Below the pieces are notes generated by a model. It saw only the letters and a list, made by a program, of their open reading frames with translations, did not search any database and had not been told where the DNA came from. Made by a program: the position numbers and the translations under genes. Below, piece by piece: positions 35,935 to 60,544 of a stretch of DNA of 64,000 nt. The stretch comes from a virus: positions 1 to 64,000 of IMG/VR virus record IMGVR_UViG_3300007512_001547. One strand, written 5' to 3'. Position 1 is the first letter of the stretch; every line of letters starts with the position of its first letter.

Positions 35935-35942
35935 AGGGGTAT

Positions 35943-35948: not shown

Positions 35949-35953
35949 GTAGT

Positions 35954-36586: not shown

Positions 36587-36596
36587 CGTTTATACT
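36569..36596 (+). promoter_or_regulatory. Consensus promoter before Sm-like gene
   Basis: TTGACA (36569-36574), 16-nt spacer, TATACT (36591-36596), then 6 nt to ATG 36603. Predicted leaderless. Confidence 0.75.
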
Positions 36597-36602
36597 AATA
36601 CT

Positions 36603-39776: not shown

Positions 39777-39779
39777 ATA
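39774..39779 (+). promoter_or_regulatory. Late-type promoter element before iscA-like gene
   Basis: AAATAAATATT; TAAATA ends 5 nt before ATG 39785, no Shine-Dalgarno. Confidence 0.6.
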
Positions 39780-39784
39780 TTAAT

Positions 39785-41163: not shown

Positions 41164-41167
41164 ATAA

Positions 41168-41182
41168 GTATTTAATAAATAC
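41168..41182. promoter_or_regulatory. Near-palindromic bidirectional late promoter
   Basis: GTATTTAATAAATAC: TAAATA reads on the plus strand at 41176-41181 (toward ATG 41196) and on the minus strand at 41174-41169 (toward ATG 41163). Only the centre base breaks the palindrome. Confidence 0.65.
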
Positions 41183-41195
41183 GTATTATAATAAT

Positions 41196-42605: not shown

Positions 42606-42611
42606 TAAACA

Positions 42612-43610: not shown

Positions 43611-43638
43611 AATTACATTCGGTTTATAAAATTTCTAA

Positions 43639-43657
43639 TAAATAATCATATTAGGAG
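43639..43657 (+). promoter_or_regulatory. Late-type promoter with Shine-Dalgarno
   Basis: TAAATA at 43639-43644, AGGAG near 43653, ATG 43667 (22 nt from the element). Confidence 0.65.
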
Positions 43658-43666
43658 ATTTAAAAC

Positions 43667-45529: not shown

Positions 45530-45546
45530 TAGTATCTAAAACTCAA

Positions 45547-45563
45547 TAAATACTGGTGAAGGA
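45547..45563 (+). promoter_or_regulatory. Late-type promoter with Shine-Dalgarno
   Basis: TAAATA at 45547-45552, GAAGGAG near 45558-45564, ATG 45574 (21 nt). Confidence 0.65.
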
Positions 45564-45573
45564 GTAAGTTCTA

Positions 45574-48075
45574 ATGTCGACACCAGTGTGGTCAACCACA
45601 GCAGGTAAACTTGCATCAATTGATGAGCAAGTGTCATATTCGCTACAATTAGAAGCGAATACAGCCGATTCTACGGCTATCACTTACTCCGTAATTGCAG
45701 GGAGCCTACCTTCAGGAATGGAACTTACTTCAGCAGGCTTACTTACAGGGATTCCAGCTGAGGTTTCGAAAAGAACTAGATACACCTTCGTTGTACGTGC
45801 CACAGCTGGAACAACAATTACAGATAGAAATTTTTATTTAGATATAGAAGGTGCAGACGCACCAACATTTACAACTGCATCAGGACAACTCCAGTTAGAT
45901 GACTCTTCAAGAGTTGGTTTATATTGGATATTGGATGGATCATCGTTATCATTCCAAATAGCGGCAAGTGATACAGATACAAGAGCAGGACAATCGTTAG
46001 TTTATGAAATTGTACAAGGTGCATTACCACCAGGTATTACTATGTCAGCAACAGGATTAATATCTGGAATAGTACAACTTACAGAAGATGAACGATATGG
46101 ACCACAAGGTGGATATGCAGAAGATTATGATGATTATGTTTACGATAGAACAGTATTTTCAAAATCTAGATCAATAAATTATGATTTTATAGTAAGAGTT
46201 TCAGATAGTACAAGTTATGTAGATCAAAATAATTCAATATTTGTTTATACAGCAGATTATTGGAGAGTATCAAATTCAGAAATTACAGTAGACATGAATG
46301 AAATAGGGGGTTCAGCATTAACAGTTGATTTTAGTGCTAATAGAAGACCAATTTTCAAAACAGCATCAGCCCTTGGAACATTTAGACATGACAACGCCTG
46401 TGTAATTAAAATTGACGTTGAAGATTTTGATCCATTACAAGCAGATTTAGAATATTCAATCGTATCAGGTGCTATGCCTTCAGGTTTATCAATTAATATT
46501 AGCTCTGGAGAAATATATGGAACATTGGCAAGACAGACCGCTATTGAAACAAGTTATACATTTACAATAAGAGCGAACAGAGTTGTATCAACTGGAATAA
46601 ATGTGTTCACTGATCAAATATTTACAATGAAAGTAATTGGTGAAATTGATATTGGAATTACATTTACAACTCCAGCAACCATTGGTACATTGACGGCAGA
46701 TATTCCAAGTATATTATCATTTTCAGCAGTAGCAGAAGAAACAAATAGAGTTTTAACTTATAGTTTAACATCTGGATCGTTGCCAACAGGTATAACATTA
46801 TCTCCACAAGGAAATTTAATAGGAACAATTGATCCAAGTGACTTTACTGATTCAACTCGAGCATATACATTTACAGTTACGGTTAGTGACCAATATCAGT
46901 CATTAGCAACATCAAAAGAATTTACATTAAACATTGACATACCATATACTACTATTGAATATGGTAATATGACCGGACATTCAACATCTTTTATTGATCA
47001 AAATATATTTTATAATATTGCACAAGATCCAAATATTAATTCTCCTGAATATATTTACAGACCAGAGGATAATAATTTTGGAATGAAACTAAATCCTGAA
47101 ATGTTAATGATGGCAGGATTACAAGCACAAACACTTACAGCATTCCAACAACAAATGGAACAAAATCATGCTCCAAAAACTTTATATTTTGGAGAATTAA
47201 AAACAGCAGTTGCAAAAGAAAACAATATTATAAAATATGAAGTTGTTTATCTTGAAATGACAGACAAACTTGTTAATAATGATGGTACAGCAATTAGTTC
47301 ATCGGTTTCATTAAGAACAGATGTTGCAAAACCTATGTTAGGTCCAAGAGCAGGAACAGTTAATTTAACTACTGATATGGATGACTTCAATATTACAACC
47401 TCTGGCGGATTATCATTTAGCACGTCTGGCTCTAAAGTTCCATATGCTGGTCAAATTTCAGCAGATTTAGATTATATGGCAACACTTTATCCAAATGCAG
47501 TTGCAAATATGAGAAGTAGAATGAAAACTTTAGGACATAAAGAATGGGACCATTTGCCTTTATGGATGAAAACAACACAATCAGGTGACCTAGCACCATT
47601 GGGGTTTGTATTAGCAGTACCTATATGTTATTGCAAGGCAGGTACATCTGCTTTGTTAAAGAAAAGAATAAAAGATAAAGGATTAATTTTTAGAAATATT
47701 GACTTTATTGTAGATAGATATCAAGTTAGTAAAAGCAAAGTTACACCTGCTAAATTCACAGCAGATGGCTCAACTACTACATTCCAATTAGATGAGATTG
47801 TACATGAAGAAGATATTTTGGTTAAAGAAGGTAGTGATATTGTTTATGCTGGAGACGGAGTAACAGCAGACAATAACCAAAAGCCAACAGATTTAACTGC
47901 TGATGGTGAATTAAGATCTGCAGACCATGAATATGGCATTGAACTTACTCATAATACTTCAACTAGTAAAACTACAATTACTTTTACCAAAGAAGTACCG
48001 TCAGACGGCACTATTATTACAGTCGAAAGAGCTAACGATAAATATCTTAAATTTAGAAGCAAAGGAATATTTTAA
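45574..48075 (+). CDS. Ig-like repeat virion protein (He_PIG type, 833 aa)
   Basis: Four putative Ig-like repeats with the SLPSGM..S..G...G signature: AGSLPSGMELTSAGLLTG, QGALPPGITMSATGLISG, SGAMPSGLSINISSGEIYG and SGSLPTGITLSPQGNLIG, ending near residue 450. The C-terminal 380 residues are unlike these and include a helix-rich stretch (MLMMAGLQAQTLTAFQQQM) and a terminal beta domain (STTTFQLDEIVHEEDILVKEG). Typical of long tail or neck fibres in marine T4-like phages. Coupled by TAATG to the next gene. Confidence 0.82.
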   Translation: MSTPVWSTTAGKLASIDEQVSYSLQLEANTADSTAITYSVIAGSLPSGMELTSAGLLTGIPAEVSKRTRYTFVVRATAGTTITDRNFYLDIEGADAPTFTTASGQLQLDDSSRVGLYWILDGSSLSFQIAASDTDTRAGQSLVYEIVQGALPPGITMSATGLISGIVQLTEDERYGPQGGYAEDYDDYVYDRTVFSKSRSINYDFIVRVSDSTSYVDQNNSIFVYTADYWRVSNSEITVDMNEIGGSALTVDFSANRRPIFKTASALGTFRHDNACVIKIDVEDFDPLQADLEYSIVSGAMPSGLSINISSGEIYGTLARQTAIETSYTFTIRANRVVSTGINVFTDQIFTMKVIGEIDIGITFTTPATIGTLTADIPSILSFSAVAEETNRVLTYSLTSGSLPTGITLSPQGNLIGTIDPSDFTDSTRAYTFTVTVSDQYQSLATSKEFTLNIDIPYTTIEYGNMTGHSTSFIDQNIFYNIAQDPNINSPEYIYRPEDNNFGMKLNPEMLMMAGLQAQTLTAFQQQMEQNHAPKTLYFGELKTAVAKENNIIKYEVVYLEMTDKLVNNDGTAISSSVSLRTDVAKPMLGPRAGTVNLTTDMDDFNITTSGGLSFSTSGSKVPYAGQISADLDYMATLYPNAVANMRSRMKTLGHKEWDHLPLWMKTTQSGDLAPLGFVLAVPICYCKAGTSALLKKRIKDKGLIFRNIDFIVDRYQVSKSKVTPAKFTADGSTTTFQLDEIVHEEDILVKEGSDIVYAGDGVTADNNQKPTDLTADGELRSADHEYGIELTHNTSTSKTTITFTKEVPSDGTIITVERANDKYLKFRSKGIF

Positions 48076-48638
48076 TGGCAAGTAACATAGTACCAGGTAA
48101 CGTAGACGGCACTTATCCTAAAGCAGGACAGGATAACAGTTCACAAGGATTTAGAGATAATTTTAGTGCAATTAAAAACAATTTTACTGAAGCAGTAACA
48201 GAAATAGAAGCATTACAAACAAACAAAGCAAACTTAAACGCTTCAAGTGATTTTGCTGATAATGAAGTTATTAGAGCAAAATTTAAAGATACATCAGAAA
48301 CAGTATACGCACATGGTACAACTGGTGGTGCAATTACATTAAATCACCAAAATGGACATTACCAAACTATAACGTCTAATGCATCTATAACATTATCATT
48401 TACCAATTGGCCTGCTACAGCAACACTGGGTAGAATTGTATTAGATATTACGTTTGCATCTACAGCACACACGATTACAATTCCAACTGCTGTATTAGTA
48501 TCTGGTTTAGTATTAGGTGGAGATGGCTCTTCTAATACAATAACTTGTCCAACATCTGGAAGATATGTTTACGAGTTTACAACTCCAGATGCAGGTACAA
48601 CAATTTTAATGAACCAATTGGGTAACAACTACATCTAA
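48075..48638 (+). CDS. Virion fibre-associated protein (187 aa)
   Basis: Begins IVPGNVDGTYPKAGQDNSS, then FRDNFSAIKNNFTEAVTEI, a divergent form of the N-terminal module of the three fibre genes. The C-terminal half is a beta domain (GAITLNHQNGHYQTI). Well represented in marine T4-like phages as a structural protein. Confidence 0.8.
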   Translation: MASNIVPGNVDGTYPKAGQDNSSQGFRDNFSAIKNNFTEAVTEIEALQTNKANLNASSDFADNEVIRAKFKDTSETVYAHGTTGGAITLNHQNGHYQTITSNASITLSFTNWPATATLGRIVLDITFASTAHTITIPTAVLVSGLVLGGDGSSNTITCPTSGRYVYEFTTPDAGTTILMNQLGNNYI

Positions 48639-48650
48639 TAGGAGGTAGTA

Positions 48651-48902
48651 ATGTATTTTCATCCATTACAAGAAGAAATCGGAAATTTATCTGAAGAAGA
48701 TATCTCCAAAAGAATAAAAGAGCTTTCTAGAAAAGTTGCTATTGCTAGACGAGGCAGAAATCCAGACATGTTACAAAAACTACAACATGCACTTGGAACT
48801 TATCAAGATGCTATTAGACAAAGAAGAGTTGAACAATGGCACAAAGACTTTAAAAAAGCAAGAGGCGAACCAGATTTAGGTGATTTAATCAACATTGAAT
48901 AG
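48651..48902 (+). CDS. Conserved phage-type helical protein (83 aa)
   Basis: A good Shine-Dalgarno (GGAGG near 48642) precedes the ATG. Helical and basic-acidic throughout (DISKRIKELSRKVAIARRGRNPDML). Similar small proteins occur beside structural genes in marine T4-like phages; function unknown. Confidence 0.72.
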   Translation: MYFHPLQEEIGNLSEEDISKRIKELSRKVAIARRGRNPDMLQKLQHALGTYQDAIRQRRVEQWHKDFKKARGEPDLGDLINIE

Positions 48903-48914
48903 TAAGTATGTTTA

Positions 48915-49547
48915 ATGCCAAATTCATTTAGTTGGAAAACAAAATTTAAATCAATTATAATTGTAGACGGTGAATTATTCGCAAACGAATATAGTATTAA
49001 ACTTTTCATAACACCCTACACTGCAAATTTAAAAGAACAAACAGAATATTTTGATAGATTAAAAAATCTCTTTGAAATGGTAATGGCGAATACAATTACT
49101 ACATGGAAAGATGAACCTCTTTACCATACTTTACAAAAATCATCTAACAATAGATTTATAGAATTACCAAAGCCACCATATGATCAAATAATGGCGGCGG
49201 TATGCTTCTGCAAAGCAAATGCAATTTTAGATTCTGTAATTGTAGTGAATAAATTAGAACTTTCTAGTTGGCAAGGGGATGGTATTACATATTCGGTTGA
49301 CAAAGATAGTAAAGAACTTATACTATTAGATACACCTGATTGGTTTTCAAAAAAATATGAAGGTTTTGATCCATGGTGGTTAAGGGCAGACACGGCAACA
49401 TATGATAGAGAACTTGATAAAGGCATATACACAGGACACTTTAGTTGGAATAATAAAATACCAGTTGACAAGAAGCACGAAACCCATGCTAAAATATTTG
49501 AGTTTAATCCAAAGGTTTTAGATGGTGGGAAAGATAAAAATAAATGA
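48915..49547 (+). CDS. Hypothetical protein (210 aa)
   Basis: Begins with strands FKSIIIVDGELFANEYSIKLFITPY. A cysteine pair CFCKAN and a Trp-rich FDPWWLRAD follow. No motif recognised. Overlaps the next gene by 26 nt. Probably structural or replication-linked by position, without direct support. Confidence 0.7.
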   Translation: MPNSFSWKTKFKSIIIVDGELFANEYSIKLFITPYTANLKEQTEYFDRLKNLFEMVMANTITTWKDEPLYHTLQKSSNNRFIELPKPPYDQIMAAVCFCKANAILDSVIVVNKLELSSWQGDGITYSVDKDSKELILLDTPDWFSKKYEGFDPWWLRADTATYDRELDKGIYTGHFSWNNKIPVDKKHETHAKIFEFNPKVLDGGKDKNK

Positions 49548-50043
49548 AACAGGTGATTGTATCTTTACAGAAGAAGATGCAATAGATTCACTCTATACTA
49601 ATCCAGACTTCGATATATCAAAATTATTCTTTGAAGACACTGAACAATACAATAACAGCATAAAAAATACCGGAATTGATCTACAACAATTACAAACTGT
49701 ACCAAAACGACCTACTCCAGCAAAAGTTGATGCAACAAATATTGCTAATTGGCACATGCCACAAAAGTATTATGAATTAAATGTATTGGAATGGTTATTG
49801 AATAAGTGTCAAAACGATTTTGAGAAAAAAAGAGTAGAACAAGAATATTTGTTATTTGAAAAGAAAAACTTTATAAAAGTATTACAATTTTTAATCTACT
49901 TTGTAGATACATTACGAAAAAACAATATAGTATGGGGTGTGGGTAGAGGTAGTAGTGTGGCAAGTTTTTGTTTATTTTTAATTGGCGTACATAAGATAAA
50001 TCCATTGCAATATAACTTAAATATCGCCGAATTTTTAAGATGA
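49522..50043 (+). CDS. Fragment-like protein with DNA polymerase III alpha (DnaE) motif
   Basis: 173 residues. The C-terminal part reads WGVGRGSSVASFCLFLIGVH then INPLQYNLNIAEFLR, which matches the GRGS..GS...Y.LGI..DP..Y.L.F.RFL segment in the palm of C-family polymerases. The protein ends just there, before the catalytic Asp residues, so it cannot polymerise. The N-terminal 100 residues are unlike DnaE. It may be a host-derived piece kept as a clamp- or polymerase-binding protein. Confidence 0.72.
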   Translation: MVGKIKINETGDCIFTEEDAIDSLYTNPDFDISKLFFEDTEQYNNSIKNTGIDLQQLQTVPKRPTPAKVDATNIANWHMPQKYYELNVLEWLLNKCQNDFEKKRVEQEYLLFEKKNFIKVLQFLIYFVDTLRKNNIVWGVGRGSSVASFCLFLIGVHKINPLQYNLNIAEFLR

Positions 50044-50052
50044 TAAGTAAAA

Positions 50053-50063
50053 TATAATAGGAG
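50053..50063 (+). promoter_or_regulatory. -10 element plus Shine-Dalgarno
   Basis: TATAAT (50053-50058) directly followed by AGGAG, before ATG 50070. No clear -35. The same TATAAT-plus-SD arrangement precedes dnaK. Confidence 0.45.
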
Positions 50064-50069
50064 CATAAA

Positions 50070-50456
50070 ATGGTAGCAAGAGCACCCAGAAAAAGAATGT
50101 ATAGAACAATGCAAGGTCGTATGGTAGATATTGAAAAATTACGAACGGCAAACGAAACAGTTAGAGCCGTTGGTAATATGAATGTTAATGCTAGAGGTGA
50201 TGTATTAGGACCACATGGACAAATTGTAACATCAAAAGCAGAAGTAATGAAAACATATTACGAACAACCAAAAGGTAAGGTTGATGATACACCTGCAAGA
50301 GCAAAACCTACACCTCCAAGAAAAACACCTCCAACACCAGTACAAAAAATGACTCCAGTGGAATCAAAACCAACTGCTAAACCAGTAGAAACATTTAAAC
50401 CAAAAACTCCCACTGAGAAAAAAGGTATTGACGCCGCACTTGACGGATTAGAATAA
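50070..50456 (+). CDS. Proline-rich conserved phage protein (128 aa)
   Basis: The N-terminus (ARAPRKRMYRTMQGRMVDIEKL) and NVNARGDVLGPHGQIV resemble a protein widespread in marine T4-like phages. The C-terminal half is a Pro/Lys/Thr-rich linker ending in a short helix (GIDAALDGLE). Role unknown, perhaps a scaffold or virion linker. Confidence 0.75.
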   Translation: MVARAPRKRMYRTMQGRMVDIEKLRTANETVRAVGNMNVNARGDVLGPHGQIVTSKAEVMKTYYEQPKGKVDDTPARAKPTPPRKTPPTPVQKMTPVESKPTAKPVETFKPKTPTEKKGIDAALDGLE

Positions 50457-50468
50457 ATCTTATATAAT
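50440..50468 (+). promoter_or_regulatory. Consensus promoter of the gp31-like gene
   Basis: TTGACG (50440-50445), 17-nt spacer, TATAAT (50463-50468), then 6 nt to ATG 50475. Lies in the end of the previous gene. Predicted leaderless. Confidence 0.78.
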
Positions 50469-50474
50469 ACTTCT

Positions 50475-50918
50475 ATGTCACAAATAGAGGACTTACAAGC
50501 AAAAGGATTTGGATCGCATGGCGGTAAACAATACACCGTTGATCATGATATCACTCCACTTAAAAAAAGAGTATTAGTATCTGATATGCACTTCGGTGAA
50601 ACAAGATCTAAAGGCGGTATTATACTTGTAGATGACGATGGATCACAATCAGGTATTCATCCTAGATGGGCAAAAGTTTATGCTATTGGAAATCAACAAG
50701 AAGATGTAAAAATTGGACAATGGCTATTAGTTTCACACGGTCGTTGGTCTAGAGCATTCAAAGTTGCTAAAAACGGTATTGAATTAGAAGTAAGAATGAT
50801 TGACGAAAACGATATCTTGCTTGTATCAGACGAAGAGCCAGAACAAAATAGAAAACAAGCCGGATATGTCAACACAGGTGGACACCAACAAATGACTAAA
50901 CTTCCCGGCAATGACTAA
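50475..50918 (+). CDS. Co-chaperonin, GroES/T4 gp31-like
   Basis: Caps the GroEL cage; T4 gp31 replaces host GroES to fold the major capsid protein. The 147-residue product has the GroES beta-barrel pattern (ITPLKKRVLVSDMHFGET, GGIILVDDD, RWAKVYAIG, GQWLLVSHGRW) with a mobile-loop region after MHFGETRSKG. It is longer than GroES, with an extra acidic C-terminal tail. Forms part of the phage chaperone set with DnaK, DnaJ and Hsp20. Confidence 0.85.
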   Translation: MSQIEDLQAKGFGSHGGKQYTVDHDITPLKKRVLVSDMHFGETRSKGGIILVDDDGSQSGIHPRWAKVYAIGNQQEDVKIGQWLLVSHGRWSRAFKVAKNGIELEVRMIDENDILLVSDEEPEQNRKQAGYVNTGGHQQMTKLPGND

Positions 50919-51297
50919 AAAAATTAAACTTAAAAGAATGTTTGTGCCTATAGACAAACTTGTCACAATGGCCGAACTAGGGTTGGGTGCAAAACGACCA
51001 CTCAACAAAGAAAAAAGAGGTTGGATAAACAAACTAAAAAAACAATCAGAGCCGTTGGATCCAATACTTGTAACACCTATAAAAGATTCTGGTTACTTTC
51101 TATTAACAGATGGATGGCATAGAGTACAGGCGGCAAAAGCAATGAAAGAAAAAGAAATCGAAGCACTACCATTACCAGCAGATATAGGATTAAGCATGGC
51201 TAAAGCAAATAAAATTTTACGAGATATCGATCGTCAATATGGATTTAAATTAGAATGCAGTGAAATTATAGGAGAATGGGCATTCTACAAAGATTGA
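50911..51297 (+). CDS. ParB/Srx-fold nuclease-like protein
   Basis: 128 residues with the ParB N-terminal core: DPILVTPIKDSGYFLLTDGWHRVQAAKAMKEKEIEA in place of the usual PI.V....Y.L.DG.HR..A. The GWHR box stands in for the family's GxRR/GHRR motif. No helix-turn-helix domain follows, so DNA partition is unlikely; small phage ParB-like proteins can be nucleases or CTP-binding factors. Overlaps the gp31-like gene by 8 nt. Confidence 0.75.
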   Translation: MTKKIKLKRMFVPIDKLVTMAELGLGAKRPLNKEKRGWINKLKKQSEPLDPILVTPIKDSGYFLLTDGWHRVQAAKAMKEKEIEALPLPADIGLSMAKANKILRDIDRQYGFKLECSEIIGEWAFYKD

Positions 51298-51322
51298 CAA
51301 TTAACAATAATTTATATATTAT
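51294..51322 (+). promoter_or_regulatory. Consensus promoter of the clamp loader gene
   Basis: TTGACA (51294-51299), 17-nt spacer, TATTAT (51317-51322), then 6 nt to ATG 51329. Predicted leaderless. Confidence 0.75.
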
Positions 51323-51328
51323 TACTAT

Positions 51329-52255
51329 ATGAAAGAACTTTGGGTAGAGAAGTATAGACCAAAAACATTAAAAGAATATGTTGTTCGTGATGAAGCACAA
51401 CGACAACAAATACAATCTTGGATAAATGATAAAGCAATTCCACATTTATTATTAAGTGGTGCACCTGGTGTTGGTAAAACTACACTTGCAAAAGTATTAT
51501 TCAACGAACTTGAAGTAAGCAGTTATGATATATTAGAAATAAATGCTTCTAGAGAAAATTCTGTAGATATTGTAAGAGAAAAAATTAATAACTTTGTACA
51601 AATTATGCCATTTGGTGCATACAAATATGTATTACTTGATGAAGCAGACTATATGAGTCCAAATGGACAAGCGGCATTACGTGGTGTAATGGAAACATAT
51701 CATACTTCAGCAAGATTTATAATAACTTGCAATTATCCAAATAGAATTATTCCGGCACTTCATAGTAGATGTCAAGGTTTCCATATGGAAGTAATTGACA
51801 AAACAGAATTTACAGCAAGGGTAGCAGAAATATTAATTTCTGAACAAACTGAACAAGACATTGAAACTCTAGACACTTATGTAAAAGCAACATATCCTGA
51901 TTTAAGAAAATGTATTAATATGATACAGCAAAATTGCAGAGATGGCAAACTTATGCCACCAACAAGTGGAGATTCAGGACAACAAGATTATAGATTACAA
52001 ATGGTTGAGCTGTTTAAAGCAGGTAAAATAAACGAAGCAAGAAAATTAGTATGTAGTCAAGCAAGGCCCGAAGAATGTGAAGAAATATACAGATGGTTGT
52101 ATGATAATTTAGAAATAATATCCAAAGAAGATGAGCTACAAGACAAAGCAGTGCTAATTATTAAGCAGGGATTAGTAGATCATTCATTTGTTGCTGATCC
52201 TGAAATAAATTTAGCAAGTGTTATGATTAAACTAGCAAGGTTAAACAATGGGTAA
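51329..52255 (+). CDS. Sliding clamp loader large subunit (T4 gp44-like)
   Basis: AAA+ ATPase that opens the gp45 clamp and loads it on DNA. Walker A GAPGVGKTT near residue 45, Walker B LLDEADYM near 101, sensor 1 FIITCNYPNRI, and the SRC arginine-finger motif in HSRCQGF. 308 residues, as expected. The N-terminus LWVEKYRPKTLKEYV is the family's opening. The small subunit (gp62) is not evident beside it. Confidence 0.95.
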   Translation: MKELWVEKYRPKTLKEYVVRDEAQRQQIQSWINDKAIPHLLLSGAPGVGKTTLAKVLFNELEVSSYDILEINASRENSVDIVREKINNFVQIMPFGAYKYVLLDEADYMSPNGQAALRGVMETYHTSARFIITCNYPNRIIPALHSRCQGFHMEVIDKTEFTARVAEILISEQTEQDIETLDTYVKATYPDLRKCINMIQQNCRDGKLMPPTSGDSGQQDYRLQMVELFKAGKINEARKLVCSQARPEECEEIYRWLYDNLEIISKEDELQDKAVLIIKQGLVDHSFVADPEINLASVMIKLARLNNG

Positions 52256-52526
52256 AAAACATAATAAAAAAAGATTCTTTTGTGTCAAATACATTATAAA
52301 ACCGGATAAAAAGTTTGACGAATTTGTAGAACTATCCAAAAAGAAAATTGGTCCTGGAAAAATGTTAGAATACACTGTGGTGTTAGATCTTGTAAATGAG
52401 GAAATTATTAAGAACGATCTGCCTGGCATACCAGTTGCAGAAAGAGATAATATACCCTATTCACGTATTCTAGACCACTATAAAAAGTGGTATGCCGAAG
52501 CAATTAATACCTTTCTTGAGTCATAG
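52248..52526 (+). CDS. Hypothetical protein next to the clamp loader (92 aa)
   Basis: Overlaps the clamp loader by 8 nt, the place where gp62 often sits, but it does not resemble gp62. Basic N-terminus (GKKHNKKRFFCVKY), then KIGPGKMLEYTVVLDLVNEEI strands and a C-terminal helix. Conserved-looking, unassigned. Confidence 0.68.
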   Translation: MGKKHNKKRFFCVKYIIKPDKKFDEFVELSKKKIGPGKMLEYTVVLDLVNEEIIKNDLPGIPVAERDNIPYSRILDHYKKWYAEAINTFLES

Positions 52527-52535
52527 TCTAATCGC

Positions 52536-52541
52536 TAAATA
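52536..52541 (+). promoter_or_regulatory. Late-type promoter element
   Basis: CGCTAAATAGTAG; TAAATA ends 8 nt before ATG 52550. Likely start of the lysis and late block. Confidence 0.6.
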
Positions 52542-52549
52542 GTAGCATT

Positions 52550-53032
52550 ATGCATGATGTATTAGATATAATCCGTAACGTACAGTCTTTATACGCAGTA
52601 GGACCTACTTTAACAATTTTAAAAGATTTTGAAAGAGTTTTAGACGAGTTAGATGTGTATGTTTTTCAAAATTGGGAAGATGGTGAATTACTATCAGGAC
52701 CAGTTGATTCAAGACATTTTGTTACTTGTTCATTTATGTGGCCTGCTGATAAAATGCCTGACCCTTCAGGTGGCAAAAGATTGTTAGACAGAGGTTGTAA
52801 AGTTACATATGCAAAAGACGAATTACTAAAACCAAGAGAAATAAAGTCTCCGGAAGATTATAGACCAGGTACAACTAAAGGTAAAATTGATGGGCACGAT
52901 ATTTGGGTAGTAGAGATTAAAATGCCAAAAGAATTAATTGGTAATTTTAAACATGGCAAAGACGAAATTGATAGCCAAGACGAATCTGATATGGGTGCAG
53001 GGGACCTAAATAGTTTAGATGCAACAATTTAA
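52550..53032 (+). CDS. Conserved phage-type protein (160 aa)
   Basis: The core VDSRHFVTCSFMWPADKMPDP and HDIWVVEIKMPKELI is of a kind I associate with marine T4-like phages, where it is usually unannotated. Mixed fold, acidic C-terminus (ESDMGAGDLNS). Late promoter and overlap with the next gene suggest a joint virion role. Confidence 0.72.
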   Translation: MHDVLDIIRNVQSLYAVGPTLTILKDFERVLDELDVYVFQNWEDGELLSGPVDSRHFVTCSFMWPADKMPDPSGGKRLLDRGCKVTYAKDELLKPREIKSPEDYRPGTTKGKIDGHDIWVVEIKMPKELIGNFKHGKDEIDSQDESDMGAGDLNSLDATI

Positions 53033-53759
53033 TGAAGGATTAAAAGCTGGCGATTTAGAAGGCGTTGTTTCAAAAACGTTCTCAGTAGATCAATATAAAT
53101 CAAAAATGGGCGATGACAGGAACATTATGGTTCTTGCATTTGTTGTTAATGGTTTAGCACCAGCAAAAGATTTAGAACGTTTCGCTGAAACTGGATACAA
53201 AGAAGTATTAGATGCAGATGCTACGCCAGGCACAATGGCAGATGGCAAACATAGAGTATTTGTTGAGTTTCAAAGAGATGAAAAAGTTGATCGACACATT
53301 TATAAATTTTTAGAAGACCTTAAAAAATTAACTAATATTGAGACGTTCCATTTTACATATCATAAAAGAGATGTACCATTTGAAGCATCAGCAAAGAATC
53401 TAGCGGATGTATTACCAAGAACACCAATAGCATACACACAAAAAATTAGTTCATTAAGATTAGGTGAAGTAAAAAATTTCTTTGATAAGTTTAATATGAT
53501 GGAATTTAAGTTAGATAACAATATTGTTGACATAAAAAAACAAAATGCAGAAGCACTTAAATTTGAATTACACGCATTTGGTGATACACAAATGATAATA
53601 AACGAAGTAAAAGCATTTAAAATAGATCAAGAAGCAATGAGTGAGTGTATCTACCTCACAAAATATTTTGGACCATATCAAATTACCAAAACTACAGAAG
53701 ACAGATTCATTTTTTCTAAAGGCCAAGAGTCGGCTTTGTTAAGTAAAAGTGGATGGTAA
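53019..53759 (+). CDS. Conserved phage-type protein (246 aa)
   Basis: Partner of the preceding gene by 14-nt overlap. Residues 1-130 look alpha/beta (NIMVLAFVVNG, KHRVFVEFQRDEKVDRHIYKFLEDL); the remainder has repeated strand-helix units. No catalytic motif found. Virion or assembly role inferred from position only. Confidence 0.7.
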   Translation: MQQFNEGLKAGDLEGVVSKTFSVDQYKSKMGDDRNIMVLAFVVNGLAPAKDLERFAETGYKEVLDADATPGTMADGKHRVFVEFQRDEKVDRHIYKFLEDLKKLTNIETFHFTYHKRDVPFEASAKNLADVLPRTPIAYTQKISSLRLGEVKNFFDKFNMMEFKLDNNIVDIKKQNAEALKFELHAFGDTQMIINEVKAFKIDQEAMSECIYLTKYFGPYQITKTTEDRFIFSKGQESALLSKSGW

Positions 53760-54217
53760 GATTAAGCGAAAATTTCAGTTTACAAGAATTTACTAAAAGT
53801 CAAACTGCTGAACGAAGAGGCATTGATAATACTCCTGTTGAAGGACATTTAGAAAATGCAAAAGCATTATTTGAAAATGTAGTACAACCTGTTAGAGATA
53901 ACTTTGGCGTAACAGTAATTAATTCAGGATATAGAAGTGGTGATTTAAACTATGCAATTGGTGGTTCAAATACTTCACAACATTGTAAAGGACAAGCAGT
54001 AGATATAGAATGTCCAGGCACTCCAAACTATGACGTTGCCAAGTGGATTGAAGATAACCTTGATTTTGACCAATTAATTTTGGAATTTTACACACCAGGC
54101 ATACCAGATTCTGGTTGGATTCATGTTAGTTATAAAACAGAAGACAATCGCAACGCATCATTAACAGCGATGAAAGAAAATGGAAAAACAGTCTACAAGC
54201 CTGGTTTAATTCAATAA
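53753..54217 (+). CDS. M15-family peptidase, probable endolysin
   Basis: Zinc D-Ala-D-Ala-type or L-Ala-D-Glu peptidase that cuts peptidoglycan. Zinc ligands H77 and D84 (SQHCKGQAVD) and H124 (WIHVSY) form the M15 pattern, with the NFSLQEFTKSQTA start of the M15_3 subgroup. 154 residues, a single domain without a signal peptide. Followed by a spanin-like pair, so it is the best endolysin candidate. Confidence 0.9.
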   Translation: MVRLSENFSLQEFTKSQTAERRGIDNTPVEGHLENAKALFENVVQPVRDNFGVTVINSGYRSGDLNYAIGGSNTSQHCKGQAVDIECPGTPNYDVAKWIEDNLDFDQLILEFYTPGIPDSGWIHVSYKTEDNRNASLTAMKENGKTVYKPGLIQ

Positions 54218-54220
54218 ATA
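54215..54220 (+). promoter_or_regulatory. Late-type promoter element before spanin-like gene
   Basis: CAATAAATACGTACATT; TAAATA ends 8 nt before ATG 54229. Confidence 0.6.
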
Positions 54221-54228
54221 CGTACATT

Positions 54229-54702
54229 ATGTTCGGACAAATTAGAATGATTTTTACCCTAATTATCATTATGGGTATAGCAGGTGCAGGTATGTATGTT
54301 TTCAAATTGAGAGCAGACAATGCCACACTTAAAGCAAACCAAATACAATTAGAAACTGCTATTACAGAACAGAACAAAGTTCTAGAACAACAAAAAGCAG
54401 ATTTTGAAGCAATCATGGAAAGTAATAAAAAATTAAATGTCTTAATACAAACATTTAAAAAAGATTTAGACGATTTAGATAAAAGATTTAATAAGAAAAA
54501 AAGAGATGTTGGCAAACTAGCAATAGCAAAAACAAAATCAGTTGAAAGAATTATAAACAAAGGTGCTGAGAATGCCCAAAGATGTGTTGAGTTGGCATCA
54601 GGTGCTGAACACACAGAAGAAGAATTAAAAGCAACAAAACGATCGGAGATTAATACGGAATGCCCAAGTTTAGCAAACCCGAGTTACGTACATTATGAGT
54701 AA
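54229..54702 (+). CDS. Inner-membrane spanin-like protein (Rz-like)
   Basis: One N-terminal membrane helix (MIFTLIIIMGIAGAGMYVF), then a long periplasmic coiled coil (about 30-110) and a short C-terminal region with two Cys. 157 residues. This is the layout of Rz, which spans the periplasm to the o-spanin. The next gene is a small lipoprotein overlapping by 8 nt, completing the pair. Confidence 0.78.
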   Translation: MFGQIRMIFTLIIIMGIAGAGMYVFKLRADNATLKANQIQLETAITEQNKVLEQQKADFEAIMESNKKLNVLIQTFKKDLDDLDKRFNKKKRDVGKLAIAKTKSVERIINKGAENAQRCVELASGAEHTEEELKATKRSEINTECPSLANPSYVHYE

Positions 54703-55045
54703 AATTATTGCATTAGTATTAATAGTGTTTTTAACTGGTTGTTCAATCGGTGGTGAGAAAAAAATAAAAATATTTTCAGTCGAAGAGCCAAGACAAAAAT
54801 TAGATTATCCAATGCCTACTGCATTACAACTTGAACAACTTAAATGGATAGTCATTACAAGTGCAAACGCAGAAGAAGTATTTAAAAAATTAGAAGAAGC
54901 AGGAATTGATCCTGTATTATTTGGATTAACAGATAAAGATTTTGAAATGCTGGCAAAAAACTTTGCACAAATAAGACAAAAATTACAAGAAACTAACAAT
55001 TTATTAGAAGAATACAAAAAATATTACGAAACGGAAAGTGAATAA
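54695..55045 (+). CDS. Outer-membrane lipoprotein, o-spanin-like (Rz1-like)
   Basis: Lipoprotein signal with lipobox L-T-G-C16, then a mostly helical mature part of 100 residues (KLQETNNLLEEYKKYYETE). Longer than lambda Rz1 and not Pro-rich, but the gene order after an Rz-like gene and the overlap support an outer-membrane spanin subunit. A simple lipoprotein of other function is possible. Confidence 0.7.
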   Translation: MSKIIALVLIVFLTGCSIGGEKKIKIFSVEEPRQKLDYPMPTALQLEQLKWIVITSANAEEVFKKLEEAGIDPVLFGLTDKDFEMLAKNFAQIRQKLQETNNLLEEYKKYYETESE

Positions 55046-55272
55046 TGTTTATCTTTCATTGGATTAAAGAATTTTTTTTAACAATATGGTTTTGGATCGT
55101 AGGACATCCTTTGGAACTAACTTATTGGTTTGAAGGAACTGAATTTAAAGTACAAGTACGTAAATTTAAAGAAGTAAAACCAAATCATATTGTTTTTAAA
55201 AATATGGATACTGATAAACACGTTGTTGTTAAATCAGATGTACCAATCAAATATATAGTAAGGGAAAAATAA
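55045..55272 (+). CDS. Small membrane-associated protein (75 aa)
   Basis: Hydrophobic N-terminal segment (FHWIKEFFLTIWFWIVG) followed by a small beta domain (GTEFKVQVRKFKEVKPNHIVF). Coupled by TAATG to both neighbours in the lysis block. Function unknown. Confidence 0.68.
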   Translation: MFIFHWIKEFFLTIWFWIVGHPLELTYWFEGTEFKVQVRKFKEVKPNHIVFKNMDTDKHVVVKSDVPIKYIVREK

Positions 55273-55709
55273 TGTACGAATATAGATGTAAAGTGTTAAA
55301 AGTAATTGACGGTGATACTGTTGATGTTGATATTGACTTAGGTTTTGGTACGTGGATACACAATGAACGTGTTAGAATTATGGGAATAGACACACCTGAA
55401 TCAAGAACAAGCAATGACATAGAAAAGAAATTTGGATTAGCGGCTAAAAATAGATTACAAGAGTTATTAGGTGAGAATGCTATTTTAAAAACACAAGTAA
55501 GCAAAAAAGGTGAAGATATGAAGGGTAAATTTGGACGTATCCTAGGTAATTTTAAAACTGAAGATGGGCGTATATGTGCAACTATACTTTGTGAAGAAGG
55601 TCATGCTGTGGCTTATTTTGGTGGTGCTAAAGAAGATATACACGAACAACACATTAAAAATAGAAAAAAACTTGTTAAAGAGGGTCTAGTTGAAGGCCCA
55701 ATTCAATAA
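55272..55709 (+). CDS. Staphylococcal-nuclease-like (SNase/TNase) protein
   Basis: OB-fold nuclease of 145 residues. Catalytic set by motif: DGDTVDVD, RVRIMGIDTPE (Arg, Asp and Glu) and KFGRILG (second Arg). No signal peptide, so it acts in the cytoplasm, perhaps on host DNA. Next to lysis genes. Related forms occur in marine phages. Confidence 0.88.
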   Translation: MYEYRCKVLKVIDGDTVDVDIDLGFGTWIHNERVRIMGIDTPESRTSNDIEKKFGLAAKNRLQELLGENAILKTQVSKKGEDMKGKFGRILGNFKTEDGRICATILCEEGHAVAYFGGAKEDIHEQHIKNRKKLVKEGLVEGPIQ

Positions 55710-55724
55710 ATACGTATAAAAAGG
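55707..55724 (+). promoter_or_regulatory. Late-type promoter with Shine-Dalgarno
   Basis: CAATAAATACGTA with TAAATA at 55707-55712, AAGGA near 55721, ATG 55731 (18 nt). Confidence 0.6.
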
Positions 55725-55730
55725 AAAAAC

Positions 55731-56321
55731 ATGGAATTTATAATAACACTTGCAATGAAATTTTGGCAATGGACTTTAGTGATTGTTTTTATTCTAATAG
55801 GTTGGCTTATAAACGTATTAGATAAAAGAAAACCACCTAAAGTAGAATTTACATATAAAGAATTTCCACATATGCAACCATTAAAAATATCTACAAAAGG
55901 TATAGGATTTTTTAAAGGTATATTAATGTGGATACTATCAACAAGAAACTGGACTGTCACAAAAGATTGGTACTACAACATAAACGGAACTGATTACGTA
56001 ATACCTGCAGGATTTACATTTGATGGTGCAAGTATTCCAAAATTCCTAAGAACTTTTTTCTCTCCAGTTGGAGTATTATTAATGGGTGGACTTGTACACG
56101 ACTACGGTTACAAGTATCAAACACTACTTCTTAAAAACAAAAAAGAAACTATTGGCATTAAAGATCAAAAATGGATGGATAAAACATTCAGAGATATTAA
56201 CATCTTTGTTAACGGGTTTTATACTATGAACTACCTATCATATTGGTCATTGAGACTTGGCGGTTTTATGGCATGGAACGGACACAGAAAAAGAAATGCT
56301 AAAATTGAAGGTATAAAATAA
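55731..56321 (+). CDS. DUF1353 protein with N-terminal membrane anchor
   Basis: 196 residues. A membrane helix (FWQWTLVIVFILIGWLI) precedes the DUF1353 domain: DYVIPAGFTFDGASIPKFLR and GGLVHDYGYKY are its hallmark segments. The family is common in phages and has no settled function. Coupled by TAATG to the next membrane gene, in the lysis block. Confidence 0.87.
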   Translation: MEFIITLAMKFWQWTLVIVFILIGWLINVLDKRKPPKVEFTYKEFPHMQPLKISTKGIGFFKGILMWILSTRNWTVTKDWYYNINGTDYVIPAGFTFDGASIPKFLRTFFSPVGVLLMGGLVHDYGYKYQTLLLKNKKETIGIKDQKWMDKTFRDINIFVNGFYTMNYLSYWSLRLGGFMAWNGHRKRNAKIEGIK

Positions 56322-56644
56322 TGGCTGACGATTTAGTTAAAGTTAAAAAAACTACAGAAGAATACGAATTAAAAAAAAGCGATCTTGTTCCAGAAACTGG
56401 TGATGACGCTCCTACGGTAACAAATAAAATTGCAGGATTATTAGATAAATTTAGAGTTATTCCTCGACTAGTAATGTTGGCCTACATCTTTGCTTTTTAT
56501 ACATCAGTTAAATGGTTTATGGGTTTAGAAGATCCAACAAATGCTCAAGCTATGTTTATATCAACAATAGTTGGTGCCGGTGCGGCATTCTTTGGATTGT
56601 ATGTTGGTAAGCCAGGAGCAACACTTCCAAAAAACAAAAAATAA
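56321..56644 (+). CDS. Holin-like two-helix membrane protein (107 aa)
   Basis: A charged N-terminal region of about 45 residues, then two membrane helices (LVMLAYIFAFYTSVKWFM and MFISTIVGAGAAFFGLYVG) and a basic tail. The size, topology and nearby endolysin and spanins suit a holin. Not proven; similar proteins occur in marine T4-like phages. Confidence 0.62.
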   Translation: MADDLVKVKKTTEEYELKKSDLVPETGDDAPTVTNKIAGLLDKFRVIPRLVMLAYIFAFYTSVKWFMGLEDPTNAQAMFISTIVGAGAAFFGLYVGKPGATLPKNKK

Positions 56645-56654
56645 TTACCAAACA

Positions 56655-56682
56655 TTGACAATTCACAGATCTGTAATATAAT
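56655..56682 (+). promoter_or_regulatory. Consensus promoter of dnaJ-like gene
   Basis: TTGACA (56655-56660), 16-nt spacer, TATAAT (56677-56682), then 11 nt to ATG 56694. Very short leader without a Shine-Dalgarno. Confidence 0.75.
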
Positions 56683-56693
56683 AATTACTGTAA

Positions 56694-57536
56694 ATGAAGA
56701 ATTATTATGATATGCTAGGTGTGGCTGAAAACGCATCTAATGACCAAATAAAAAAGGCTTTTAAAAGTATTGCTAAAAAAGAACACCCAGATCGTGGTGG
56801 CGATGAAGTAAAATTTAAAGAAGCCAACGAAGCATACGACACATTAAAAGATACAAAGAAAAGACACGAGTATGATACTGTAAGAAAGTATGGTCAAAGT
56901 ATGGGTGGACAAGGTGGAAACTTCCATTTTACTTCAGAAGACTTTTTTGGCGATGATATATTTGAAAATTTCTTTTCTGGATTTGGCGGACCTAATGTGC
57001 GAACAAGATTCCGTCAAAGACAACGTGCAAACAAATCAGTAAATGTACGTATGGCAATATCAATTAAAGAAGCAATGAATAGTATGGAAAAAACTATTAA
57101 CTATAGATTGCCATCAGGCAAAGAAGAATTTGCCACAGTTAAAATACCTGCTGGTATACAACATGGAGTAACTTTCAAATATAAAGGTATGGGAGATAAT
57201 TCACTTAAAAGTATACCACGTGGAGATTTATTAGTACAAATGAGTGTATTAGATTCTGATGGTTATACAAGAGACGGAAACGACTTACATACTAATAAAA
57301 CTATTGATTGTTTTCAAGCTATAAGAGGATGTGTAATAGAATTAAAAACATTAACTGATTCTACTATAAAAGTGCAAGTACCTGCAGGCACACAACCAGA
57401 TACATTAATTGCTTGTAAGGGACAAGGTATGCCTATACACAAAACGTTAAATATTAGAGGAAATCTGTATGTGAAAATTATAGTTTTAATTCCACAACTA
57501 TCAGCTGGTGACTTAAAGAAAATAAAAGATTTATGA
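56694..57536 (+). CDS. DnaJ-like co-chaperone (class B, CbpA-like)
   Basis: Stimulates the DnaK ATPase. The J domain fills residues 1-65 with the essential HPD at 31-33. A Gly/Phe-rich linker (GGQGGNFHFTSEDFFGDDIF) leads to the two C-terminal substrate domains (VNVRMAISIKEAMN, RGNLYVKIIVLIPQ). The zinc-finger region of class A DnaJ is absent. 280 residues. With dnaK at 565 the phage has a J-protein/Hsp70 pair. Confidence 0.95.
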   Translation: MKNYYDMLGVAENASNDQIKKAFKSIAKKEHPDRGGDEVKFKEANEAYDTLKDTKKRHEYDTVRKYGQSMGGQGGNFHFTSEDFFGDDIFENFFSGFGGPNVRTRFRQRQRANKSVNVRMAISIKEAMNSMEKTINYRLPSGKEEFATVKIPAGIQHGVTFKYKGMGDNSLKSIPRGDLLVQMSVLDSDGYTRDGNDLHTNKTIDCFQAIRGCVIELKTLTDSTIKVQVPAGTQPDTLIACKGQGMPIHKTLNIRGNLYVKIIVLIPQLSAGDLKKIKDL

Positions 57537-58036
57537 TACAATTATTCTCATGGCCACATCAAGTATTAAATGAAGTAAGTTCTGTTTGGACTAAAGAAGA
57601 TTCTATTAAAGGTTACAATGACATAGAACAATTTGAAAATGATATGATAAAATTTATGTTAGAAAATAAAGGAATGGGTCTTGCGGCAAACCAAATAGGG
57701 ATTACCAAGCGATTCTTTGCAATTGGTAGTGATACGTTTGACAAATTTAAAAAACCTGTTATAATATGGAATCCACGGGTGATAACAGAAAGTGAAGAAA
57801 AAGTTATACACGAGGAAGGGTGTTTAAGTTTTAAAGGCATCTTTATAAAAGTAGAAAGACCAAAAGTAATAGAAGTAGAATATGAAACAACGCAAGAAAC
57901 AAAAGAAACAGCAAGACTGGACAACATGGAATCCAAGTGTTTCCAACATGAACTTGATCACCTTGAAGGTATTACGTTTAATAAAAGAATTAGTAAATTA
58001 CGATGGGACATGGCAAAGAAAAAAATAACAGGATAA
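57533..58036 (+). CDS. def: Peptide deformylase
   Basis: Removes the N-formyl group from new proteins. All three motifs are intact: GMGLAANQIG, EEGCLSF with metal ligand C97, and H139-E140-L-D-H143. 167 residues, full length. Phage deformylases are common in the sea. By exposing N-termini it also affects N-degron recognition, which is interesting beside ClpA and ClpS. Confidence 0.95.
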   Translation: MIQLFSWPHQVLNEVSSVWTKEDSIKGYNDIEQFENDMIKFMLENKGMGLAANQIGITKRFFAIGSDTFDKFKKPVIIWNPRVITESEEKVIHEEGCLSFKGIFIKVERPKVIEVEYETTQETKETARLDNMESKCFQHELDHLEGITFNKRISKLRWDMAKKKITG

Positions 58037-58251
58037 AAAAGAAAAAGGTATGGAAAATTTTAGATGGAACTTACAAGAAACCAATAGGCAAAGAGGATGT
58101 AGAGAGACTAATAGCGGCAGTACAACAGGAATGCTATTGGGACGACAGAGATGTGGAAACTTGGGACGAAATAAACTCGGGCAAAATAGATTGGAGTGGA
58201 GATGTTAGAAGCAAACGAAAGCCTAGAAAACATATTCGAAAACGCAGTTAA
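58003..58251 (+). CDS. Hypothetical basic protein (82 aa)
   Basis: Overlaps the deformylase by 34 nt and clpA by about 50 nt. Lys/Arg-rich ends (KEKNNRIKKKK, KRKPRKHIRKR) with an acidic centre (ECYWDDRDVETWDE). No family recognised; overlap on both sides makes it less certain. Confidence 0.55.
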   Translation: MGHGKEKNNRIKKKKVWKILDGTYKKPIGKEDVERLIAAVQQECYWDDRDVETWDEINSGKIDWSGDVRSKRKPRKHIRKRS

Positions 58252-60544
58252 AGAAGCAGAGAATAGAAAACACGAATACGTTACTATTGAACACGTACTT
58301 CTTGCACTTATAAAAGACGAACATATTAGCACAACACTAACTGAATTTAAAATAAATGTTGCAGGACTAATAAAAGATATTGCAGAATACCTTGATACTA
58401 AATGTAATGATATTATTTCAAAAGCTACAACTAAGGTAGTTCCAAGAAAAACTGCTTCATTAGAAAGATTAATGAATAGAGCGTTTACTCAAGCACTATT
58501 CCAAGGTAGACAAGATGTATCATCAATTGATATTTTAATATCTATATTTTCTGAAAAGAAAAGTTATGGTGCATTTTTCTTAAAGAAACATCAAGTAAAC
58601 AAACAAGATTTACTTGATTTAGTATCAACTGAAACTATACTCGATGAAGGTATGGCAACTTTAGGTGGAGGTTTAAGTGGAGGTCAACCACAATCAGAAC
58701 AAAAACTAAGACCTAACCAAGCAGATAGAGTATTAAAGAGTTATTGTGAAAATTTAAACCAAAAATATTTTGATAAGAAAATTGATCCTGTTATAGGCAG
58801 AGAAGACGAAACAAATCAATTAAAACAGATATTAGCAAGAAGAAATAAAAATAATGTATTAATAGTAGGTGATCCTGGTGTTGGTAAGACAGCAGTGGTA
58901 GAAGGACTAGCAAGACGTATTGCAAAAAACAAAGATGATGTACCTGAATACATTAAGGATCACATAGTTTGGAATTTAGATGTAAACTCTTTAATAGCAG
59001 GATCTAAATTTAGAGGAGATTTTGAAGAAAGATTAAAACTAATTGTAAATGCATTAGACCAAAAAGGCAAATCGATATTGTTTATTGATGAAGCACATAT
59101 GATGGTTGGTGCTGGTGCTACTGGAAGTGGTAATAGCATGGATATGGCTAATATGATTAAACCTGCATTACTAAAAGGTAACATAAAAGTAATTGCATCT
59201 ACTACATGGGAAGAATATAGAAAATATTTTGAAAAAGATAGAGCATTAATGAGAAGGTTCCAAAGATTACAAATAGGTGAGCCTAAAAATGAAACTGCGA
59301 TTAAAATATTAAAAGGTGTAAAACAATATTATGAAAAGTTTCATAAATGCACAATTACTGATGAGGCTTGTGAAGACGCAGTAGAATATTCATCAAAATT
59401 TATAGCAGATAAAAAATTACCTGACAAAGCAATTGATATTATCGACGTTGCCTGTGCAAGATTAAGATTAAATGGAACTAAAGATGGTAAAATAGATCAC
59501 GAAGAAATTATACACGAGATTGCGGCAATAACTGGTATTAGTATTGAACAATTATCTCAAAAACAAGCAAGTAATTTAAAAACATTAGAAGAAAAAATGA
59601 AATTACAAGTGTTTGGGCAAGATAAAGCAATTAACACTATTGTAGACAAAATATTAGTTGCAAGAGCAGGATTAAAAACTTTAAACAAACCAATTGGTTC
59701 ATTTTTATTTTTAGGACCAACAGGTTGTGGTAAAACTGAAACTGCAAGACAATTAGCAAAAACTTTAGGTGTTGAACTATTAAGATTTGACATGTCAGAA
59801 TATCAAGAGAAACATTCTATTGCAAAACTAATTGGATCACCTCCAGGTTACGTTGGATTTGAAGATACTACAATGGGTGGTGGTATGTTTATAAACGAAG
59901 TAGAAAAAAATCCACACGCAGTTGTATTATTTGATGAAGTAGAAAAAGCACATCGTGATGTATCTAATATGTTGTTACAAGTTATGGACTATGGTACAGT
60001 GACTGGTTCTAATGGTAAAAAAGCAGATTGTAGGAATATTACACTTATTATGACTTCTAACCTAGGTGCAGAAGAAATGGAAAGAAACAGTATTGGCTTT
60101 GGTCCTAGTGAAAGAACAGGCGAAGATGATGCCGCATTAAAACGATTCTTCCCACCAGAATTTAGAAACAGATTAGATGCAACAATTAAATTTGATAAAC
60201 TAGCAAAAGACACAATGAAATTAATTGTTAAAAAATTCTTAGCAGAACTTAATGCAATGACCATTGAGAAAAATGTAGAAGTTAATGCTACCAACGAAGC
60301 TATTGAATTTTTAATTAAAAAAGGATTTAATTCTAAAATGGGAGCAAGACCTTTACAAAGAGTTATTGATGATGAAATTAAAAAACCATTATCTCGAATG
60401 ATCTTGTTTGGTGAACTTACAGAAGGCGGAATGGTAGAAGTAAATTTATCTAACGACGTTATACCAAAACTTACAGTTGCATTTAAAACAACTAAAATTA
60501 TAGATAATTTTAAACCTAAAATTAAAAATGAGAATCCATCATAA
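58202..60544 (+). CDS. clpA: ClpA, AAA+ unfoldase of ClpAP
   Basis: Unfolds substrates and feeds them to ClpP. N domain (about 1-140), D1 with Walker A GDPGVGKTA near residue 223 and Walker B ILFIDEAHMM, D2 with Walker A GPTGCGKTE near 505 and Walker B VVLFDEVEKAH. The segment ERNSIGFGPS is the IGF-type loop that docks ClpP, and it is retained. 780 residues, full length; no ClpB-type middle coil, so it is ClpA, not ClpB. ATG 58202 has GGAG 5 nt upstream; a GTG at 58196 is possible. The ClpS adaptor is at 2518, and ClpP must come from the host or elsewhere in the genome. Confidence 0.96.
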   Translation: MLEANESLENIFENAVKEAENRKHEYVTIEHVLLALIKDEHISTTLTEFKINVAGLIKDIAEYLDTKCNDIISKATTKVVPRKTASLERLMNRAFTQALFQGRQDVSSIDILISIFSEKKSYGAFFLKKHQVNKQDLLDLVSTETILDEGMATLGGGLSGGQPQSEQKLRPNQADRVLKSYCENLNQKYFDKKIDPVIGREDETNQLKQILARRNKNNVLIVGDPGVGKTAVVEGLARRIAKNKDDVPEYIKDHIVWNLDVNSLIAGSKFRGDFEERLKLIVNALDQKGKSILFIDEAHMMVGAGATGSGNSMDMANMIKPALLKGNIKVIASTTWEEYRKYFEKDRALMRRFQRLQIGEPKNETAIKILKGVKQYYEKFHKCTITDEACEDAVEYSSKFIADKKLPDKAIDIIDVACARLRLNGTKDGKIDHEEIIHEIAAITGISIEQLSQKQASNLKTLEEKMKLQVFGQDKAINTIVDKILVARAGLKTLNKPIGSFLFLGPTGCGKTETARQLAKTLGVELLRFDMSEYQEKHSIAKLIGSPPGYVGFEDTTMGGGMFINEVEKNPHAVVLFDEVEKAHRDVSNMLLQVMDYGTVTGSNGKKADCRNITLIMTSNLGAEEMERNSIGFGPSERTGEDDAALKRFFPPEFRNRLDATIKFDKLAKDTMKLIVKKFLAELNAMTIEKNVEVNATNEAIEFLIKKGFNSKMGARPLQRVIDDEIKKPLSRMILFGELTEGGMVEVNLSNDVIPKLTVAFKTTKIIDNFKPKIKNENPS

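Follow-up and report, generated by a model that had tools for sequence, protein, structure and literature searches.

In Escherichia coli, ClpA, ClpS, and ClpP form an N-degron machine (PDB 6w1z, 7uiv, 2w9r). With regard to phages, the presence of ClpA and ClpS genes and the idea of a phage ClpS feeding the ClpAP of the host have already been published (PMC6102473, PMC7824862). Agrobacterium phage Atu_ph07 was reported to carry ClpA, ClpS, ClpP, ClpB, and DnaJ (PMC6102473), and a ClpS of phage origin was proposed to deliver targets to the ClpAP of the host (PMC7824862). In that proposal, both ClpA and ClpP are given by the host.

The DNA analysed here (the window) comprises 64,000 nucleotides, i.e., positions 1-64,000 of the 137,583-bp record IMGVR_UViG_3300007512_001547 (G000). 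The adaptor hijack of host Clp that may take place here would be the same as in the published proposal; however, this phage has ClpA and ClpX of its own to give, and its likely host is mostly devoid of ClpA. Like this virus, Atu_ph07 and Sinorhizobium phage Phosso carry clpX, clpS, and clpA and have the nearest DNA polymerases (50.6% for Phosso, 45.5% for Atu_ph07), and Phosso shares the order dnaJ-def-clpA and a small heat-shock protein (sHSP) gene near clpS. Unlike it, both encode ClpP and have Rhizobiaceae as hosts, and the top 20 phage matches for the DnaK of the window include neither of them. The PA5oct group (Pseudomonas) and RaK2-like phages have a phage ClpA as here, which is only ~37-38% identical to that of the window; PA5oct also has ClpS but, unlike the virus of the window, carries ClpP between clpS and clpA. 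Compared with the E. coli machine, the architecture of ClpA, the IGL/IGF loop, the fold of ClpS, and the residues contacting ClpA are the same, whereas ClpA is 45% identical, ClpP is absent, ClpS has Asn for Asp and Gln for the gatekeeper Met, and the second AAA+ module (D2) of ClpA has an insertion after the GYVG loop. To judge from the open-access literature, the loss of clpP from its conserved place, a likely host mostly without ClpA and ClpS, and the altered ClpS pocket are new. The features of the locus are listed in Table 1.

Table 1. Features of the chaperone and Clp genes, with positions in the window.
Feature	Positions	Strand	Basis
Small heat-shock protein (IbpA-like), in the clpX-sHSP-(dnaK)-clpS block	28..480	+	Pfam
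dnaK, SAR11-like, directly upstream of clpS	565..2454	+	Pfam, tree
clpS, ClpS-type adaptor, 99 aa	2518..2817	+	PF02617, E 1.5e-25; predicted fold
ClpS degron-pocket stretch NDNITTQ (Asn47 kept; Asp49 to Asn; Met53 to Gln)	2596..2616	+	Alignment
ClpS His equivalent to Caulobacter His79, kept	2692..2694	+	Alignment
clpS-to-clpA interval, place of clpP in most relatives, without clpP here	2818..58201	.	Fully sequenced
dnaJ-like co-chaperone, 4-bp overlap with def	56694..57536	+	ORF list, Pfam
def, peptide deformylase (all three motifs: GMGLAANQ, EGCLS, HELDH)	57533..58036	+	Pfam
82-aa ORF of no known family, lying between def and clpA and also present in some close relatives	58003..58251	+	ORF list, Pfam
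clpA, phage unfoldase of the ClpA type with two AAA+ modules, 780 aa counted from ATG	58202..60544	+	Pfam, NCBIfam, PHROG, alignment with E. coli ClpA
ClpA D1 Walker A, GDPGVGKT	58868..58891	+	Aligned with E. coli ClpA 214-221
ClpA D1 Walker B, ILFIDEAH	59075..59098	+	Alignment with E. coli ClpA
ClpA D2 Walker A, GPTGCGKTE	59714..59740	+	Alignment with E. coli ClpA
ClpA D2 pore-1 loop, PPGYVGF, then 4-residue insertion (TTMG type)	59840..59881	+	Alignment
ClpA D2 Walker B, VVLFDEVEK	59921..59947	+	Alignment with E. coli ClpA
ClpA IGF ClpP-docking tripeptide (loop ERNSIGFG)	60092..60100	+	Aligned with E. coli IGL 617-619

The virus is best explained as a T4-like jumbo phage belonging to a marine sister group of Phosso and Atu_ph07, which are isolated jumbo phages of 469 kb and 490 kb, respectively. 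A second contig (G037) shares the initial 20,793 bp of the record with 100% identity and extends it upstream by 72 kb; a ~80% identical contig (G019) extends ~100 kb past the other end. No terminal overlap closing the genome was found, and the genome is incomplete; it measures at least ~210 kb and probably exceeds 300 kb. The genomes of relatives are 330-490 kb in size.

Several other genes were observed in this virus. The window contains SUF iron-sulphur genes (sufB, sufE, and sufC, close together at 5809-8782), an IscA/SufA-type scaffold gene (39785-40120), and a type I secretion-like set in a region of locally raised GC (22157-32508), which consists of a 1,696-aa cadherin-repeat protein, an outer-membrane efflux protein, HlyD, and a CHASE2-guanylate cyclase protein. 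In G037, there are genes for a TctA transporter subunit, its likely partner TctC, and the iron permease FTR1 (24245-26720 and 48697-49287; L137, L138). In addition, many ORFs starting like radical SAM/SPASM proteins occur in G000 (69198-123471) and G037 (20225-40941), one of which was tested and confirmed.

The host is most likely a member of SAR11 (Pelagibacterales), as inferred from several lines of evidence. Among the matches listed, the DnaK of the phage shares 78-79% identity with those of Pelagibacteraceae, and in a tree built from these matches three DnaK sequences from phages are nested within SAR11 (support 99). GC content and tetranucleotide use of the phage are nearer to SAR11 than to the other alphaproteobacteria in the comparison. 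Islands with a lone phage-type ClpS near pilin genes were detected in two SAR11 genomes, AH-287-G19 (G058) and G107; the ClpS copy of the former groups with phages (100/97), and both islands carry ORFs whose homologues in the phage lie a few kb upstream of clpX. These islands (G058:C10 8675-19045, L331; L384 83-9112) also contain phage-related lipoproteins and an 852/853-aa membrane-like ORF. They may represent a satellite or the remains of phages, and they show gene exchange rather than infection. It appears that, unlike ClpA and ClpS, only the phage DnaK is of SAR11 descent. A recent capture of clpA or clpS from SAR11 was considered and rejected: phage ClpA forms one deep branch and phage ClpS groups with phages, and Thr52 and Ile78, common to phage and SAR11 ClpS, are not supported by the tree as a sign of descent.

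Most SAR11 genomes carry ClpP without ClpA and ClpS. Among 118 genomes of Pelagibacteraceae with a completeness of 85% or more, strong matches were found for ClpP in 109, ClpA in 14, and ClpS in 15; all but one of these ClpS share the genome with ClpA (14/15), the two genes being adjacent wherever coordinates are listed. In the 34 genomes nearest by DnaK, ClpA occurs only in G065, whose DnaK lies near the phage DnaKs in the tree. ClpB-like proteins were detected in three of these 34, all outside the main group, and the remaining ones have only ClpX- and Lon-sized matches. In other alphaproteobacteria, ClpA and ClpS are present in 21 of 23 genomes, and the rhizobial genomes examined have clpS-clpA. 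Aat (PF03588) was found in none of five phage contigs and 37 SAR11 genomes but in all four other alphaproteobacteria. SAR11 ClpP retains Ser97, His122, and Asp171 (numbered by the E. coli ClpP sequence) and most residues of the docking cleft. No report on the loss of ClpA/ClpS in SAR11 or on jumbo phages of SAR11 was found in the open-access literature.

An earlier note on this DNA, made from the sequence alone, had described a ClpA with both AAA+ modules and the loop ERNSIGFG, which is borne out by Pfam and alignment. Clp_N, two AAA modules, and D2-small all score far above cut-off, and the alignment with E. coli ClpA runs end to end (E 3.5e-200, phmmer). A chance match is excluded. The reading frame has 782 codons (58196-60544) and opens with GTG at 58196; the ATG at 58202, given as the start in the earlier note, is the likely start, because GGAG lies upstream and many relatives align from that Met. 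The alignment contains no large insertion, i.e., the middle domain of ClpB/ClpC is absent. Walker A, Walker B, and Arg fingers are intact in both modules, and sensor 2 and both pore-1 loops are present. The docking loop has the form xGF in all 73 phage ClpA, 10 SAR11 ClpA, and 20 other alphaproteobacterial ClpA sequences, so IGF is the ordinary alphaproteobacterial form; the loop is absent from the ClpB rows of the alignment. Assignment as a pseudo-enzyme or as ClpB was rejected, the motifs and the IGF loop being intact. The NCBIfam score (887.7 bits) lies under the equivalog cut-off of 993.15, which is an annotation threshold for cellular ClpA and not a biological feature; such a score is expected for a member of the deep, separate phage branch in which this ClpA sits (tree support 100/100; PHROG 4871). 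The four-residue insertion after the D2 GYVG loop is typical of the clade of the window and absent from cellular ClpA.

A ClpX of the same virus (417 aa), absent from the earlier note, is encoded in G037, 0.4-1.7 kb left of the first base of the window. It has a zinc finger, an AAA module, and an SGIGFG loop (IGF), and its gene precedes those for sHSP, DnaK, and ClpS; in Phosso and Atu_ph07, clpX likewise stands before clpS. The virus thus has two predicted unfoldases of the kind that works with ClpP, plus an adaptor, but no peptidase is known from it.

The predicted structure of ClpS (AlphaFold2, mean pLDDT 82.6) lies within 0.6-1.0 Å of Caulobacter ClpS, by which its pocket residues are numbered here; residues 1-15 are modelled with low confidence, resembling the disordered N-terminal extension of known ClpS. 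In Caulobacter ClpS, the side chains of Asn47, Asp49, and His79 contact the α-amino group of the substrate, and Met53 (Met40 in E. coli) is the gatekeeper (PMC12493166). The claim of a phage ClpS with the N-degron pocket residues holds only in part: the gene, the fold, and six residues (Asn47, Asp48, Thr51, Val56, Met75, and His79) are in place, but positions 49 and 53 are changed, and the protein lacks the canonical recognin set of Asn47, Asp49, His79, and Met53. Position 49 is Asn in 12 of 13 ClpS sequences of the clade and Ser in the other, versus Asp in all 40 cellular ones (30 alphaproteobacterial and 10 SAR11), while Gln at position 53 is peculiar to the virus of the window within its clade. 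The loss of Asp49 predicts a weakened or changed recognition of N-termini. On the other hand, the positions of ClpS-ClpA contact (PMC12493166) are kept on both sides, namely Glu and Lys of EVAEQK in ClpS and Glu23, Glu28, Thr81, and Arg86 in ClpA.

It is possible, if short of probable, that this ClpS serves as a switch rather than as an N-degron adaptor, binding ClpA and blocking ssrA-type or self degradation, with a changed pocket that reads other signals or none. The substitutions at positions 49 and 53 and the lack of Aat in the phage contigs and SAR11 genomes examined favour such a role; however, Asn47, His79, and most of the pocket are kept, Asn can still form hydrogen bonds, and pocket variants exist in bacteria, such as Leptospira ClpS1 (PMC12493166). 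This possibility concerns ClpS only and is compatible with the use of host ClpP. A natural ClpS variant in which the amino-group Asp is replaced throughout a clade is also useful for learning the role of that residue.

The genes around clpA and clpS are mainly chaperone genes. The genes dnaJ and def, the 82-aa ORF, and clpA follow one another head to tail with overlaps, and the arrangement dnaJ-def-clpA is shared by most of 80 loci, including some with as little as ~50% ClpA identity, and by Phosso; Atu_ph07 has dnaJ-clpA. In nearly all members of the clade, the sHSP gene immediately precedes clpS. The deformylase beside clpA had been taken as a link to N-terminal processing. The synteny is real and old, but it does not itself imply N-degron work, and nothing shows such a functional tie; deformylases are common in phages and are usually explained by translation (PMC7162821).

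This chaperone block, together with the retention of clpA by phages whose hosts have ClpA, makes a role without ClpP the main rival explanation. According to it, ClpA would act mainly as an unfoldase/disaggregase with the DnaJ, DnaK, and sHSP of the phage in order to help fold, assemble, or recycle bulk phage protein, and ClpS would modulate the choice of aggregates. The conserved dnaJ-(def)-clpA block, the isolated phages of ClpA-bearing hosts that keep clpA, and the position of clpS next to sHSP and, in the window, dnaK agree with it, as does the lack of ClpB-type disaggregases in the DnaK-nearest SAR11, in which only short AAA matches were found. It was also reported, in work cited in PMC6102473, that ClpS steers ClpA towards aggregates. 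However, a chaperone free of ClpP need not keep the xGF loop, which is found in every phage ClpA compared; a phage ClpX with an IGF loop is present as well, and many relatives encode ClpP. Taken together, this explanation appears rather unlikely.

The absence of ClpP from the window, as stated in the earlier note, holds for the whole record, and a search beyond it, which the note had suggested, detected no ClpP in G037 of the same virus or in its relative G019, the genome being incomplete. A 50-row ClpP profile run with filters off against six contigs gave a best E of 0.84. None of 30 contigs of the clade (2.16 Mb) has ClpP, whereas in the wider ClpA group it was found in 10 out of 20. The order clpS, clpP, clpA is shared by Phosso, Atu_ph07, PA5oct, and the long contigs G018, G026, and G027, while G032 differs. 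On the circular map of Phosso, clpS lies at 398,039, clpP at 30,200, and clpA at 125,457, and with clpX the order in Phosso and Atu_ph07 is clpX-clpS-clpP-clpA. Another contig (G025) spans its own clpS-clpA interval completely and likewise lacks clpP there. A complete phage-encoded ClpAP is thus not present in the sequenced part of this genome. A divergent ClpP-like protein, perhaps a prohead protease, was observed in five contigs of the wider group (G016, G026, G028, G030, and G032; L109-L113), in two of which it stands beside a regular ClpP. That a ClpP of the virus itself, or a distant ClpP-like peptidase, lies in the unsequenced part and makes host ClpP unneeded would suit relatives of 330-490 kb that have ClpP, given a record of 137.6 kb, but is very improbable in view of the ~210 kb of this virus and ~100 kb of a close relative without it, the contrast between clade and wider group, and the emptiness of the conserved place.

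The reading towards which these data lean is that the phage supplies the unfoldases ClpA and ClpX and the adaptor ClpS to the ClpP of a host mostly without ClpA and ClpS. That the phage pair could capture host ClpP, as had been suggested, is supported at the sequence level by the intact IGF loop of ClpA, the absence of clpP from its place, the IGF loop of ClpX, and the docking cleft kept in the ClpP of the likely host lineage. Briefly, phage ClpA would be an active double-ring unfoldase that docks on host ClpP by its IGF loops, and phage ClpX would dock on the same ClpP clefts. ClpS would bind the N-domain of ClpA and select or exclude substrates. A typical SAR11 cell has ClpP and ClpX and lacks both ClpA and ClpS; on infection, its ClpP would acquire an unfoldase and an adaptor that are new to it and come from the phage. 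Several points speak against this reading: the genome is incomplete and a clpP may lie elsewhere in it, the host is only a likely one, 14 of the 118 Pelagibacteraceae, including G065, do have clpS-clpA, and RaK2-like Klebsiella phages carry clpA though enterobacteria have their own. The latter means that a ClpP-independent role, such as assembly or disaggregation, may be the general function.

With regard to N-degrons, most SAR11 lack ClpA, ClpS, and Aat, so there is possibly no host pathway to redirect, and the phage may install an N-degron pathway, or something like one, rather than redirect that of the host. This is the weakest part of the mechanism, because the whole clade has lost the Asp that contacts the amino group and there is no transferase to feed the pathway. 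In its fullest form, in which both sides have suffered losses (ClpP in the SAR11 jumbo phage; ClpA, ClpS, and Aat in the host) and the phage equips the host ClpP with ClpA, ClpX, and a ClpS whose N-degron pocket is modified, and so creates an infection-time degradation pathway with phage-specific degrons that the cell otherwise lacks, the proposal is tentative and somewhat unlikely. If the use of host ClpP is right, the phage goes beyond borrowing a regulator of its host: it would provide one of the most abundant bacterial groups of the ocean with the half of a protease that is missing there, and the choice of ClpP substrates during infection would be directly testable with two purified phage proteins and one host protein.
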